Source: a virus. Taken from it: 47,399 nt of DNA. The stretch covers positions 1 to 47,399 of IMG/VR virus record IMGVR_UViG_3300023082_000003; one strand, 5' to 3'. Below the pieces are notes generated by a model, which ran no database searches, had not been told where the DNA came from, and saw only the letters and a list, made by a program, of their open reading frames with translations. Below are positions 8,085 through 13,978 of this stretch, one piece after another. A program made the position numbers and the translations under genes. Positions within the stretch are counted from its first letter, which is position 1; the number at the start of each line of letters is the position of its first letter.

Positions 8085-8878
8085 TGGGGCACCATCAGGT
8101 CGCGAGCCCATTCGGTGCTGTCGAAGTCAGGCTCGCTAGCCGGACGACGTGCAGGGAACTGGCGAACATTGCTGGCGGATGCTTCGTCGCGCTTCACCCA
8201 CTTGACCAGCAGGCTCACCCAAGCTGCTTGGGTTTCGAATCGGCCGGTCGCCGAGTAGTGGCAGACGAACGCGGCAGTGGCCTCTGGGGTGAAGCGGTCA
8301 ACAGGGATCGCCATGCGCAGTGCGTAGGCTTTCAGCAGCTTCTGATCTGGCACCCAATCAAGGGTCATCTCGGTCGGGGACTTTGGGTCAGCCGGCTCGG
8401 ACGAATTTTCATCGCTCGCGTGTAGAGTGTTGTGTTGATCTTCTCCATTCCCCATCCCTTCCCCTTCCCTTCCGGGGGTGAGGGCTCTCCTAACATTCGA
8501 CGACTCCTCGTCGAGTACTCGACTACCACTCGGCGAGCTTTCGTCAGGGCCTACGATAAAAGCCGGATATTTGAAGGTGCGTTTGTCGATTTTCTGGTGC
8601 CGCCAACCCCGCACATGCAGGTAGGTTTTTCCTTCGACCGAGTAGAGAGCGATCAAGTCGGATGACTTCAGCTCACCCAGCAGGCCGTCGACCGACTCAG
8701 CGGTGATATCGTCACCAGGGAATACGAGGGCCTTAATGGTCCGAGGCGACAGCGGGTGATTGCCGCCGTCGTCACAGAAGTTCCAGATGCCGATGAACAG
8801 GAGGCGAGCCAGCGGCGTGCAGGACATTACCTGCTCGCTCGACCAGAACTCCGGCTTGACAGTGCGGATACGTGCCAT
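8081..8878 (-). CDS. O: Replication initiator, O-like
   Basis: The 265-residue protein begins MARIRTVKPEFWSSEQVMSC and continues ARLLFIGIWNFCDDGGNHP, a winged-helix replication-initiator domain common in Pseudomonas prophages. Residues ~115-170 are low-complexity and charged. The C-terminal part (DRFTPEATAAFVCHYSATG, WVSLLVKWVKRD) resembles the DnaT-type helicase-recruiting module. In lambda-like phages the origin lies inside the linker of this gene; a cluster of palindromes sits there (8497-8523). ATG at 8878 gives a TGATG overlap with the Rha-like gene; GTG at 8881 is possible. Confidence 0.85.
   Translation of the reverse strand: MARIRTVKPEFWSSEQVMSCTPLARLLFIGIWNFCDDGGNHPLSPRTIKALVFPGDDITAESVDGLLGELKSSDLIALYSVEGKTYLHVRGWRHQKIDKRTFKYPAFIVGPDESSPSGSRVLDEESSNVRRALTPGREGEGMGNGEDQHNTLHASDENSSEPADPKSPTEMTLDWVPDQKLLKAYALRMAIPVDRFTPEATAAFVCHYSATGRFETQAAWVSLLVKWVKRDEASASNVRQFPARRPASEPDFDSTEWARDLMVPQ
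8497..8523. other. Overlapping palindromes in O-like gene; origin candidate
   Basis: A 7-bp inverted repeat (TCGACGA ctcc TCGTCGA, 8497-8514) overlaps a perfect 14-bp palindrome (GTCGAGTACTCGAC, 8510-8523). Both fall in the low-complexity linker of the O-like gene, where lambda carries its origin iterons. I do not see four regular iterons or a long A+T-rich run, so this is a candidate only. Confidence 0.35.
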
Positions 8879-9696
8879 CACGCGACCCCCTTGAGTTCTT
8901 TGTCATGCGTGAAAAGGCCGTCCCACGTTTTCTTCATGGGCAATTCGTTGTTCAGGTAGAGCTCGTAGAGGCGGATAGCGCCCTTCTTCAGCAGCACTGG
9001 CGTATAGGTGAAGAAGGCGTCTTTGCCGTGAGGGGTGACTTCGTGCGCGTGCTCGGTCATGTACTTGTCGCGGGCATAGGACGCCACACGCCAGCGCACG
9101 CCGGTCTTGCTCTCGTTGTAGAGCCAGCTGCGACCCTCAAGAGCCCCTCCGACTTGCATGACGTTCACGCCATTCAGCTTTTTGCAGAACTGCGGCGCAG
9201 TCATGCCTTCCTGGAAGAGGTTTTCCATCTGGTGGATCTTGGTCGCCTGAGCCTGATTCTCGACACTGAGCAGCAGCTGGGCTTTTTCGGCAGCCTGCTT
9301 CTTCTCAACTTCATCCGCCCAGGCGCGAGCGGCGGCAGCGGGATTGGAGAAATCCGGAAGCGTGGCAATAACTCGCCCGCCTTCCAGTTCGTGCCAGCGC
9401 TTGATTACGGCCATGCGCATTGCCGCGCTGTAGCCGGTCAGAAGGCAGTCGGTGTGCTCGCGGTCTAGCAAATACTCGAGCTGCTCGCGGTTCATGCTGT
9501 CAAAATAGATAGCACGGAAACCCGTGACATCTTCTTTGAGGTCGGAAAGCATTTTTTCTACGTCATTCTTGACGTGAAAGTGACGCTTGCCCGTCAGGTC
9601 GGCGATTTCCCTGGATGACATTGTGCGCGCCACGTTTCCGTAGATCGCATTTCGTGGCGCGGGTTGGTGGGTATTGCCTTGTGCTTGGATTTGCAT
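8878..9696 (-). CDS. rha: Rha-family regulatory protein / antirepressor-like
   Basis: The 272-residue protein has an N-terminal Rha-type DNA-binding region (MSSREIADLTGKRHFHVKND starting at residue 26), a central acidic and coiled region (residues ~120-150), and a C-terminal domain with FQEGMTAPQFCKKLNGVNV and GRSWLYNESKTGVRWRV, the layout of phage antirepressor (KilAC-like) proteins. Such proteins modulate lysogeny or relieve repression. It is the gene just before O. ATG at 9696 is used; ATG at 9621 is an alternative that starts directly at the Rha domain. No strong ribosome site is seen for either. Confidence 0.8.
   Translation of the reverse strand: MQIQAQGNTHQPAPRNAIYGNVARTMSSREIADLTGKRHFHVKNDVEKMLSDLKEDVTGFRAIYFDSMNREQLEYLLDREHTDCLLTGYSAAMRMAVIKRWHELEGGRVIATLPDFSNPAAAARAWADEVEKKQAAEKAQLLLSVENQAQATKIHQMENLFQEGMTAPQFCKKLNGVNVMQVGGALEGRSWLYNESKTGVRWRVASYARDKYMTEHAHEVTPHGKDAFFTYTPVLLKKGAIRLYELYLNNELPMKKTWDGLFTHDKELKGVA
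9626..9661. repeat. Inverted repeat, CGCGCCACG family
   Basis: CGCGCCACG (9626-9634) faces CGTGGCGCG (9653-9661) across 18 bases, inside the Rha-like coding sequence. The right arm extends to the full 12-base word TTTCGTGGCGCG found also at 2452-2463. Confidence 0.65.
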
Positions 9697-10247: not shown

Positions 10248-10433
10248 TTAAGCGGCAGATTTCTGAACTGCTTCAAGCAGAAGGGCTTCGATAGCCTTCC
10301 CGGTTTCGTAGCGAACTCCGGCCCCTTTGCTTGCGCGATGGATCGTCGGTTGAGTGGTACCGATCCGGTCAGCGACGGCTTTTTGGGAAAAGCCGTACTC
10401 GAACAGGCTGTTCAGCATTTCTTGTACGGTCAT
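10248..10433 (-). CDS. cro: Cro-like repressor
   Basis: The 61-residue protein contains a helix-turn-helix (YGFSQKAVADRIGTTQPTIH, residues ~13-32) and a short basic tail, the size and form of Cro. It is divergent from the cI-like gene, with the operator cluster between them. GGAGG lies 5 bases before ATG 10433. It is the first gene of the minus-strand early operon and is expected to bind the same operators as the repressor and shut down cI expression during lytic growth. Confidence 0.85.
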   Translation of the reverse strand: MTVQEMLNSLFEYGFSQKAVADRIGTTQPTIHRASKGAGVRYETGKAIEALLLEAVQKSAA

Positions 10434-10443
10434 AGGGGCCTCC

Positions 10444-10508
10444 AATTCGGCAGCGTATTGGTCGCATGATACGCAGGCGTATTGCAACAGGCAATACACT
10501 TGCGTAAT
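10444..10508. promoter_or_regulatory. Three immunity operators between cro and cI
   Basis: Three 16-bp sites fit AATACGC-NN-GCGTATT. At 10444-10459 it is AATTCGGCAGCGTATT (2 mismatches). At 10468-10483 it is GATACGCAGGCGTATT (1 mismatch). At 10493-10508 it is AATACACTTGCGTAAT (2 mismatches). Spacing is 24 and 25 bp. The same motif, with two perfect copies 25 bp apart, lies at 12201-12241. This is a lambda-like OR cluster. Confidence 0.8.
10466..10494 (-). promoter_or_regulatory. PR-like promoter for cro operon
   Basis: On the minus strand -35 TTGCCT (10494-10489) and -10 TATCAT (10471-10466) are separated by exactly 17 bp. Transcription would begin about 25 bases before the cro start. The middle operator covers the spacer and -10 and the right operator covers the -35, as expected for a repressed early promoter. 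Confidence 0.7.
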
Positions 10509-10510
10509 AC
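10482..10510 (+). promoter_or_regulatory. Candidate PRM-like promoter for cI
   Basis: On the plus strand TTGCAA (10482-10487), a 17-bp spacer and TAATAC (10505-10510) could form a weak promoter overlapping the operators. Only about 10-20 bases would separate the transcript start from the cI start codon, which lacks a good ribosome site, as in lambda's leaderless PRM message. The hexamers match consensus poorly, so this is tentative. Confidence 0.35.
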
Positions 10511-10529
10511 GTTTTCTTATTGGTGAGTG

Positions 10530-11198
10530 ATGCACATCGGGGATCGGATATTTTCCGAAATGAACGCGAAGGGTTGGAGCGAGGGCGAGCTTGCACGTCA
10601 GGCTGGAGTGACTCAGCCGACTGTGCATCGCATCATTACTGGTGAATCGAAGTCTCCAAAGAGGGATAACGTCGAGCGGATTGCCAAGGCGCTTCGAGTG
10701 CCCAGTAAATGGCTGTGGGACGGCGGCCCTCGTCCTGATCTAGTTGGGGTGTTCGACGCCAACGTCGAGCCTGCAGGCGGGCCGACGCGCTACTACGAGT
10801 ATCCGGAAATCAGCTGGGTGCAGGCCGGCGCAGCCAGGGAGGTTTTGGAGTTGTCGAACGTTGCGGCCAGCGAGATGCACCCTTCTGACGCATGGGCTGG
10901 GCCAAACGGATTTTGGCTAAAGGTCAGAGGGCCATCAATGACATCCCCCAACGGCATGTCGTTTTCGGAGGGAATGGTGATCCTTGTTGCGCCCGAATCA
11001 GATGTCGAAAGCGGTCAATACGTCGTTGCAAAGATGGTGGAAACTAACGAGACCACCTTTAAGCAGTTTGTGTGGGATTCGGGCCGGGCTTATCTAAAGC
11101 CACTGAACCCCGCCTTCCCTACCGTAGAAGTCGACGGCGAATGGGTGATCGTCGGAAAAGTTGTTGATGCAAAGTGGCCGAGATCGGTACTCGCCTGA
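10530..11198 (+). CDS. cI: cI-like repressor with S24 self-cleaving domain
   Basis: This 222-residue protein is the immunity repressor. The N-terminus is a helix-turn-helix (EGELARQAGVTQPTVHRIIT, residues ~19-38). The C-terminal half is a LexA/S24 peptidase domain with the cleavage site Ala99-Gly100 (SWVQAGAAR), catalytic Ser136 (VRGPSMTS) and catalytic Lys178 (TTFKQF). RecA-stimulated self-cleavage should link induction to DNA damage. ATG 10530 or GTG 10527 may start it; neither has a good ribosome site, which fits a leaderless maintenance transcript. Two further plus-strand genes follow and may be expressed with it in lysogens. Confidence 0.93.
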   Translation: MHIGDRIFSEMNAKGWSEGELARQAGVTQPTVHRIITGESKSPKRDNVERIAKALRVPSKWLWDGGPRPDLVGVFDANVEPAGGPTRYYEYPEISWVQAGAAREVLELSNVAASEMHPSDAWAGPNGFWLKVRGPSMTSPNGMSFSEGMVILVAPESDVESGQYVVAKMVETNETTFKQFVWDSGRAYLKPLNPAFPTVEVDGEWVIVGKVVDAKWPRSVLA

Positions 11199-11231
11199 CC
11201 CATCCAAGACGAATTAGAATACGAGGACAGC

Positions 11232-11555
11232 ATGAGCGATAAGGATGATGCTTCATTTGTAGAGACTGGCGATTCGCTGCGACATAATCAAGGCAGGGCT
11301 CTCAAGGTCCCTGGCGATGCCCTCGTTGACTACCTGAACCGAATGAGCCCGGATAATAAATGCTCATTTTGTTATGAGGGGGAGTATGCAGTAGTACCTG
11401 GAACTGGCGGCTCAACTGCTGGAGTAGTTGCCACCCCTGTCCCTCATGTTCAGCATCTCGGAGTCTGGTTCTATCTGGCGACTTGCAGGCGCTGCGGGCA
11501 TACCGTGTTTTTCAACGCGCCCTTTGTTCTTGCAGCGATGGCAGTGGATAGGTGA
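11232..11555 (+). CDS. Zn-ribbon-like passenger protein behind cI
   Basis: The 107-residue protein carries two CxxC pairs (CSFC near residue 44 and CRRC near 85), a likely zinc ribbon. It ends with a hydrophobic segment (TVFFNAPFVLAAMAV). GAGGACAGC precedes the ATG. It lies 33 bases after cI on the same strand and overlaps the next gene (TGATG). Genes in this place in lambda (rexB/rexA) and relatives act in lysogens, often against other phages. I cannot name its family; a defence or lysogenic-conversion role is inferred from position only. Confidence 0.7.
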   Translation: MSDKDDASFVETGDSLRHNQGRALKVPGDALVDYLNRMSPDNKCSFCYEGEYAVVPGTGGSTAGVVATPVPHVQHLGVWFYLATCRRCGHTVFFNAPFVLAAMAVDR

Positions 11556-12031
11556 TGGAATTAGCTCTTCGCTACTTCGATTTCTACGACCTAATGGATC
11601 GGGGGCAGGTCGCTGACGGTGAGACAGCTCGACGATACGGCAGTGATTACCTGCCAATTGATAACGTTGACACGTCTGAGCCTGTGCTTGCACTAGGGCC
11701 TGTGTATACTGAGATCTTGATCAAGGAAAACGTCACAATCATGAGCGCCTTCAGGAAAGACCTTTTCGTCACAATTACCCTCCCCGTGCTGCTTGCAGCG
11801 CTAGGGTCAGTGGCGTTGGGCTTGACTGCTTACACTCATATTGACACTAAGCTGGACGCCGCTAAGGCTGAGGCTTCTAGTGGCCTTGACCACCTTGGCG
11901 ATACCTTACGACAAGAGCTACGAGCAGATCGAGAAGCGCGCGCTAAGGAGTTTGAGACAATTCGCTCGGAAATGCGCGAAGACAGGAAGGACATGAGAGA
12001 CACGATAAAGGCCTTGTCCGACAGGCCATGA
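11555..12031 (+). CDS. Membrane-anchored coiled-coil passenger protein
   Basis: The 158-residue protein has a soluble N-terminal region of about 65 residues, one TM helix (LFVTITLPVLLAALGSVALG, near residue 70) and a long charged coiled coil (THIDTKLDAAKAEASSG through RADREARAKEFETIRSEM). ATG 11555 shares a base with the preceding stop; GTG 11552 is an alternative. Together with the zinc-ribbon protein it forms a two-gene unit behind cI that ends at a terminator (12048-12074). The pairing of a soluble sensor-like and a membrane protein recalls RexA/RexB, but no sequence similarity is claimed. Confidence 0.7.
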   Translation: MELALRYFDFYDLMDRGQVADGETARRYGSDYLPIDNVDTSEPVLALGPVYTEILIKENVTIMSAFRKDLFVTITLPVLLAALGSVALGLTAYTHIDTKLDAAKAEASSGLDHLGDTLRQELRADREARAKEFETIRSEMREDRKDMRDTIKALSDRP

Positions 12032-12047
12032 TTTACAGACCATCCCT

Positions 12048-12074
12048 AAAAGCCCGGCCCCGCGTCGGGCTTTT
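12048..12074 (+). terminator. Terminator of the cI passenger operon
   Basis: AAAAGCCCG and CGGGCTTTT form a 9-bp stem with a 9-base loop, followed by CGTTTT. It lies 17 bases past the stop of the coiled-coil gene and is symmetrical enough to act in both directions. Confidence 0.85.
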
Positions 12075-12159
12075 CGTTTTCATCCCCCGTCTGCATACTG
12101 CATTGGTCACCAGCGTAAGCTGGCAGAAGTCCTGATCCCACCAGGTTGACCAGGCAAGA

Positions 12160-12183
12160 GCCCGCCACTGAGCGGGCTTTTTT
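12160..12183 (+). terminator. Second intrinsic terminator before PL-like promoter
   Basis: GCCCGC cactga GCGGGC is followed by T6. It is a second stop about 90 bases after the first and directly upstream of the operators, apparently insulating the left early promoter from cI-operon transcription. Confidence 0.85.
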
Positions 12184-12200
12184 GTGCCTGCGTGAAAAAT

Positions 12201-12243
12201 AATACGCACGCGTATTGACTCACATAATACGCCCGCGTATTGT
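12201..12243 (+). promoter_or_regulatory. PL-like promoter with two perfect operators
   Basis: Two perfect operators, AATACGCACGCGTATT (12201-12216) and AATACGCCCGCGTATT (12226-12241), lie 25 bp apart. A promoter overlaps them: -35 TTGACT (12215-12220), 17-bp spacer, -10 TATTGT (12238-12243). The repressor bound at either site would block it. It should drive the plus-strand early operon (12538 onward). A third operator is not evident here. Confidence 0.85.
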
Positions 12244-12292
12244 TCACCCATCGAAACGAATCAGCCCCTACCAAGGGCCTCACGGATCGATC

Positions 12293-12337
12293 TGCTCTTT
12301 AAAAATCTAGACCGCCAAGCCTGCAGGCATAGCAGGC
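12293..12337 (+). promoter_or_regulatory. nut-like site: boxA plus hairpin
   Basis: TGCTCTTTA (12293-12301, followed by AAAATC) matches the boxA element of lambda nut and rRNA antitermination sites. A hairpin (GCCTGC, 7-base loop, GCAGGC; 12319-12337) follows 17 bases later in the place of boxB. The pair lies about 50 bases after the PL-like promoter. I infer NusB/S10-assisted antitermination of the left operon, which has a terminator early on (12734-12756). Confidence 0.65.
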
Positions 12338-12537
12338 CATCAACCCAGCAGGGCTCTGATGCAAACAGGTGTGACGGCCATGAAGCTGTCATTCAAGCGA
12401 CACGCAGGCCGCAAACGAGGGCGGAAGCGTGATACCGGGTGAGCGACCGGGGCCTGATTTGAAAAACAGATTTCCTCAATGGCCTTGCACGCAGGGCCAT
12501 TCGGGAAGCAGCATAGAGTGACTATTCAGGAGGTTTT
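12338..12537 (+). other. Leader of the left operon; no firm gene
   Basis: About 200 bases between the nut-like site and the first convincing gene. It holds a 20-codon Arg/Lys-rich reading frame (ATG 12380 to TGA 12442, MKLSFKRHAGRKRGRKRDTG) with a weak AGGTG site, and a 7-bp hairpin (AATGGCC ... GGCCATT, 12478-12501). I cannot tell whether the micro-ORF is translated. Confidence 0.4.
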
Positions 12538-13387: not shown

Positions 13388-13978
13388 ATCATCCTCCTGC
13401 GCATTCACAGAGTGCGCAGCGGGATGCGGGACGCCAACTCCGCACATGCGGGCCACCTTGCATCGAAATCGCCCGACCGAGGGAGCTCTTAAGTCGGGAG
13501 GAAATGGTGACGGCCGTGGAATTCGGCGCCGGATCGACGTGACCGGTAACCCAAGGAAACCGTGGGCAACGGAACCAGCCAGAGCGCTACGGTCACCTTC
13601 TTGACTGATGTTCGCCGGCCAGTTGAAACGACCATGTGGGTGCCGCCACTGCGGATAAGCCTGTGTGAATCGACGATCTGGTGCGTGATCTGGCCCGGTC
13701 ACCTTGCTGGAGCTTTTTAGCTGCGAAGGCGAGGCTGTATCGGGGTGTGATCTGAAAAATGCGCAGGCGATGCGCTAAGCGCGACGGGTAACCGGGTTCC
13801 TAGGCCGGGTGACCGAAGCGTGACCATGTAGCTCAGTTGGTAGAGCGGCCTCGCAAAAGGCGCGTCGGCGGTTCGATTCCGCCTGTGGAAGTCGGTTCGC
13901 TGCCGGCCAGATCGCACCCCAATGCAGATTTAAAAGGTAGCCACTGCCTTCCCAGTGAGCGAGCAATAGGAGATTGCG
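13388..13978. other. 591-bp non-coding stretch
   Basis: No frame here has protein-like composition with a good start; the longest minus-strand frame (13187-13702) is antisense to the 147-aa gene and Arg/Pro-rich. The stretch holds several hairpins (TGCGCA arms at 13398-13403 and 13413-13418; CCCGAC / GTCGGG at 13472-13477 and 13493-13498) and the tRNA-like element at 13822-13890. It may encode one or more untranslated RNAs. Confidence 0.55.
13822..13890 (+). tRNA. tRNA-like element with shortened anticodon arm
   Basis: A perfect D-arm (GCTC AGTTGGTA GAGC, 13831-13846, preceded by TA) and a perfect T-arm (GGCGG TTCGATT CCGCC, 13867-13883) are present. Between them are only 20 bases instead of 22-23. 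The anticodon arm is a 4-bp stem GCCT / AGGC with a 6-base loop CGCAAA, so a 7-base loop with U33 is lacking. The acceptor strands (13822-13828 and 13884-13890) pair imperfectly and no CCA is encoded. It may be a decayed tRNA or a tRNA mimic; decoding is doubtful. Confidence 0.5.

Follow-up and report, generated by a model that had tools for sequence, protein, structure and literature searches.

The locus described here raises the question of whether a set of repeated palindromes lying on both early promoters of a phage genome constitutes the operators of an immunity switch and, if so, which of two overlapping right-hand sites serves as the third operator and where the repressor promoter is placed. 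By comparing the window (i.e., the whole stretch of 47,399 nucleotides that was analysed) with related loci, we found that these sites are very probably the operators of a λ-type switch in a Pseudomonas temperate phage, judging from their sequence and conservation.

Palindromes on the two early promoters

A pattern search over the whole window located two perfect copies of AATACGCNNGCGTATT (consensus AATACGC-NN-GCGTATT), namely the left sites OL2 and OL1, together with one copy carrying one change (B) and two copies carrying two changes (C and A) on the right, with start-to-start distances between the 16-mers of 24 and 25 bp in the right cluster and 25 bp in the left one (Table 1). The preliminary description had reported these five sites, and their positions, mismatch counts and spacings were reproduced exactly; the PR-like and PL-like promoters that it proposed were also recovered, including by a promoter scan. 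When up to three changes were allowed, a sixth match, differing at three positions, was found (A'). When the window was simulated 300 times with a first-order Markov model, matches with 0, 1 and 2 changes averaged 0.003, 0.003 and 0.07, respectively, compared to five observed sites with no more than 2 changes; the simulations produced a maximum of 2 such sites, and a pair 23-26 bp apart in 0 of the 300. The five 16-mers are thus far above the chance expectation, which supports their reading as operators of an immunity switch. An Rfam search detected no RNA family at the operator region.

Table 1. Features of the putative immunity region, in order along the window.
Feature	Sequence	Position	Strand	Remarks
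cro-like gene		10248-10433	-	61 aa, recognition helix TQPTIHR; PHROG 6831 transcriptional regulator, 4.5e-18
Putative right operator C	AATTCGGCAGCGTATT	10444-10459		Over predicted PR start and leader; adjoins cro Shine-Dalgarno
Promoter PR	TTGCCT-17-TATCAT	10466-10494	-	-35 at 10494-10489, -10 at 10471-10466; predicted start ~10459
Putative right operator B	GATACGCAGGCGTATT	10468-10483		Inside PR spacer; most conserved right-hand site
Site A of the preliminary description	AATACACTTGCGTAAT	10493-10508		Kept only as PR -35 and predicted PRM -10
Predicted PRM -10	TACACT	10495-10500	+	Predicted start ~10507; without -35 box
Putative right operator A'	AATACGTTTTCTTATT	10506-10521		Over predicted PRM start; upstream of cI Shine-Dalgarno
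cI-like repressor gene		10530-11198	+	222 aa from ATG at 10530; SD-like GGTGA at 10522-10526
Terminator-like hairpin		12048-12074	+	Closes repressor operon ahead of left operators
Putative left operator OL2	AATACGCACGCGTATT	12201-12216		Overlaps PL -35
Promoter PL	TTGACT-17-TATTGT	12215-12243	+	-35 at 12215-12220, -10 at 12238-12243; predicted start ~12250
Putative left operator OL1	AATACGCCCGCGTATT	12226-12241		PL spacer and part of -10
boxA-like antitermination element	TGCTCTTTA	12293-12301	+	PL leader

The product of the cI-like gene matched the PHROG 4 repressor (7e-41), Pfam S24 (2.8e-19) and HTH_3, and displays an N-terminal helix-turn-helix (HTH) with the recognition helix TQPTVHR, followed by a C-terminal peptidase S24 domain. 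It is 33% identical to λ CI, with A99-G100, S136 and K178 aligned, the first of which we take to be the λ-like cleavage site, and the other two the λ-like catalytic residues. The HTH motifs of the CI-like and Cro-like proteins match at 10 of 20 residues, and their recognition helices are nearly identical, while the proteins differ outside this helix. Given the shared recognition helix, we propose that both would bind one palindrome, and on these comparisons the palindrome is very probably the target of the two phage repressors.

Downstream of cro lie two small genes, which matched phrog_4113 and phrog_5333 and not CII, followed by a Rha-type antirepressor, a replication initiation protein and a λ P-like helicase loader. 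Features typical of lambdoid phages were found in the replication genes of the PR operon, the divergent cI and cro genes around operators, a CI with HTH, S24 domain and self-cleavage residues, and operators overlapping both PR and PL. The left operator pair lies 1.0 kb downstream of the cI gene, where the other early operon starts. Two unassigned genes on the cI strand occupy the interval between cI and the left operators (11232-11555 and 11552-12031), one with paired CxxC motifs and the other with a hydrophobic, probably membrane-spanning stretch; neither had a PADLOC match, and both are candidates for superinfection exclusion. Elsewhere in the window, a weak Rfam tRNA match (13824-13888; 30.4 bits, with a cut-off of 29) was not confirmed by ARAGORN.

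Putative operators vary together with the DNA-binding domains

Relatives were gathered by CI protein (in viral contigs and genomes), by the two-site pattern, and by the HTH alone (in 398 Pseudomonas genomes). HTH relatives were present in 21 of the 398 sampled genomes, 3 of which belong to the class of the window, and the relatives with names came from Pseudomonas (prophages as well as phages), except for one Pantoea record in the more distant set. At the DNA level, the phage collection yielded as its only near match a 40-bp stretch outside the immunity region. The motif scan of related phages, which the preliminary description had put forward as a check, showed, in about 40 related loci from Pseudomonas, that a change in the DNA-binding domains of CI and Cro is accompanied by a change in the operators.

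Among loci found by CI protein, all 12 that had this HTH and upstream DNA harbor sites with no more than 2 changes; the other loci collected in this way, many with 57-72% CI identity but a different HTH, had no such sites in the DNA examined. Relatives whose HTH contains TQPT(V/I)HRI carry AATACGC operators on the right-hand side and, in every locus whose left side could be placed, at PL as well; in two loci (L008 and L064) the HTH reads KQPTVHRI. Two loci (L064 and L065) have a different C-terminal part of CI, yet retain this HTH and AATACGC operators. The Cro helix follows that of CI, being TQPTIHR in the window's class and TQPTINR, TQPTIYR or TQ(P/A)(T/S)ISR elsewhere, with altered operators. 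Other HTH classes display different but related operators at equivalent places, and the operator core of the wider family is NATNCG-N4-CGNATN. Furthermore, a PL spacer of 17 is accompanied by sites 25 bp apart and a spacer of 18 (L002, L006 and L064) by sites 26 bp apart, the PL operators thus remaining in register with the promoter.

This co-variation bears on the idea that a host regulator, and not the phage repressors, binds the palindromes, or that they function in replication or recombination. Apart from the sites being simple palindromes, nothing specific speaks for it; since they track the HTH of CI and Cro between phages and sit on both early promoters, we regard it as highly improbable.

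Most of the class-1 and UFJF-like loci that extend far enough into the PL leader contain an exact boxA, (C/T)GCTCTTTA, 54-87 bp past the -35 of PL. The remainder of the leader varies among relatives around this boxA of conserved position, which points to Nus-dependent antitermination; the PR leader of the window contains no exact boxA. A short open reading frame in the PL leader (12380-12442; 20 residues, Arg/Lys-rich, MKLSFKRHAGRKRGRKRDTG) was considered as an N-like peptide and rejected, as relatives do not conserve this region and the frame is probably due to chance. An A-run just 5' of OL2 (12195-12200) and the sequence CCATCG past the predicted PL start (12249-12254) are conserved across several operator classes.

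The third right-hand site and the probable repressor promoter

The preliminary description had counted site A among its five operators; in a fully λ-like arrangement, this site would be an OR3-like third operator over the repressor promoter, with a PRM -10 near 10505-10510 and CI on the middle site, at about -42, activating PRM. That arrangement is consistent with the just two changes of site A, its 25-bp spacing and its score of 12.1 with the left-operator matrix, and a PRM start near 10517 would put the middle site at -41.5. To compare the sites, each was scored against the 8 positions of the core (N)AT(N)CG-N4-CG(N)AT(N) in 23 dereplicated relatives, with the best A' offset chosen over six positions and equal freedom given to A and the controls. 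The mean core scores were 7.6 for B, 7.1 for C, 6.7 for A' and 5.1 for A, compared to 4.0-4.3 for control stretches and 3.7 for shuffles; A' retained at least 6 of the 8 core positions in 22 of the 23 relatives, and site C was operator-like in the same number.

A second scoring used matrices built from left operators only. In the window, A' scored 10.8, close to the value of A given above, with a local background maximum of 1.4. Across relatives, A ranged from 12.9 to -2.6 in the window's class, fell to -15.5 in phage UFJF_PfDIW6, and lay between -10.7 and 1.2 in another large class; the corresponding values of A' were 2.5-10.8, 10.8 and 12.2-15.7. The right half of site A is therefore lost outside the class (about 1 to -15.5), whereas A' keeps 10.8-15.7 there. 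In addition, the distance from A to A' varies by class between 11 and 16 bp, which indicates that A' is kept as a palindrome and not as a piece of a rigid block. From these results, A' is probably the third right-hand operator, and the arrangement built on site A is unlikely; the five matches initially described are real, and it is the role given to the one at 10493 that probably does not hold.

Sites A and A' overlap by 3 bp, and their simultaneous occupancy is unlikely. Site A would be at most a weak, class-specific operator, which may also serve in the window's class, since it scores as well as A' there. A further explanation is that A and A' are both in use, CI acting mainly on one and Cro mainly on the other, as a class-specific discriminating device, in line with scores far above background for both sites in the window and several class members, and with the differences between CI and Cro outside the recognition helix. 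We find this doubtful, to the same degree as the arrangement built on site A, because the score of the 10493 site is so variable within the class itself and its conserved part is explained by promoters. Indeed, the invariant part of site A, CAATA(C/G)A(C/A)T, is made up of the PR -35, read as TTG on the opposite strand, and then TA(C/G)A(C/A)T.

The latter box lies directly beside the PR -35 in 43 of 43 loci, and it probably represents the -10 box of the repressor promoter PRM; its position in the window is, on balance, the one that we favor for this promoter, with somewhat less assurance than the assignment of A'. Its invariance stands against the -10 required by the arrangement on site A, which is weak and unconserved (TAATAC, CAATAC or CGATAC). 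Two other -10 candidates were discarded: TAATAC (10505), which is not conserved outside the window's class and overlaps A', and TACGTT (10508), which also overlaps A'. The predicted PRM -10 is accompanied by no -35 box, and the middle operator occupies that place; the missing box counts against the assignment, since it leaves the predicted PRM activity unexplained.

The predicted starts of PR and PRM are 48 bp apart and the PRM -10 abuts the PR -35, so that the two promoters should exclude each other. The nearest operator upstream of the predicted PRM start is the middle one, at about -32, and a site at about -42 is absent; CI would thus not be placed for a λ-like activation of PRM.

A proposed switch and its comparison with known systems

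Integrating these findings, we propose that CI and Cro would bind one palindrome at all operators. At PL, the two sites 25 bp apart would cover the -35 and the spacer/-10, silencing the early operon; on the right side, C over the PR start, B over the PR spacer and A' over the PRM start would control two divergent promoters, with CI on B and C turning off cro and the replication genes, and Cro on A' turning off cI. A single RNA polymerase would span both PR and PRM, rendering the lytic and lysogenic states sterically exclusive, and a CI with the self-cleavage residues of λ CI would allow DNA damage to release the switch. An antirepressor gene of the Rha/Ant type is present in the PR operon (8878-9696; phrog_63, Phage_pRha), and its product may release the switch as well.

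We tentatively raise the possibility, to which we give less than even weight, of a widespread Pseudomonas phage family whose three-operator switch is built on abutting PR and PRM promoters, with one operator for each start and a third that is shared; CI would not activate PRM, and the decision between lysis and lysogeny would depend on promoter exclusion and repression alone. If true, this would be a different logic from that of λ, built of the same parts. The tight promoter overlap, kept despite operator change, offers a natural test of whether a λ-like switch needs CI positive autoregulation. The palindrome is also a likely operator code for a common Pseudomonas prophage group, so that sequence data could be used to assign immunity groups.

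A limited literature search found no described Pseudomonas operator with this sequence, and a text search of papers for the half-sites gave only unrelated hits, seemingly to lists of primers. Among named phages, UFJF_PfDIW6 (L071) is the nearest, with a CI HTH that is 59% identical and a Cro that contains TQPTIHR; it shares with the window the PR/PRM layout, the A' site, a pair of left operators at PL, and boxA, whereas its operators differ at inner positions, the left ones being AATCCGTTTACGTATT-like, and it has CII. Its published description reports it as lytic, notes a lysogeny module and does not mention operators (PMC8951688). It carries CI, Cro, CII and seemingly intact right and left operators of the family, a set that fits a temperate ancestry or lifestyle. 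Regarding the repressor itself, the nearest solved HTH by sequence is that of the 434 repressor, and the full-length CI is ~37-38% identical to 434 CI and the P22 repressor.

The compact λ-type immunity switch initially described is supported in gene order, the S24 CI, Cro and one operator family at both early promoters, while its right-hand layout does not seem to be that of λ. As in λ, cI and cro are divergent, there are three right-hand sites, and repeated sites of 16-17 bp lie on PR and PL, mostly 23-25 bp apart; the distance between the operator clusters is likewise similar, ~1.7 kb here and ~2.3 kb in λ, and the two genes that follow cI here occupy the place of rexAB. Conversely, the annotated OL-cI-OR region of λ contains no match to AATACGCNNGCGTATT with up to 3 changes, the left operators are two instead of three, and none of the products searched was recognised as CII. 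The operators annotated in the λ record, together with its promoter boxes, place the λ starts of PR and PRM 83 bp from each other, compared to the predicted 48 here; OR2 lies at about -42 from PRM, compared to about -32 for the middle operator, and the third right-hand site is upstream of the PRM start in λ, whereas here it is on the predicted start. Taken together, the switch is very probably of the known λ-like kind, differing in its palindrome and, probably, in a promoter overlap far tighter than that of λ.
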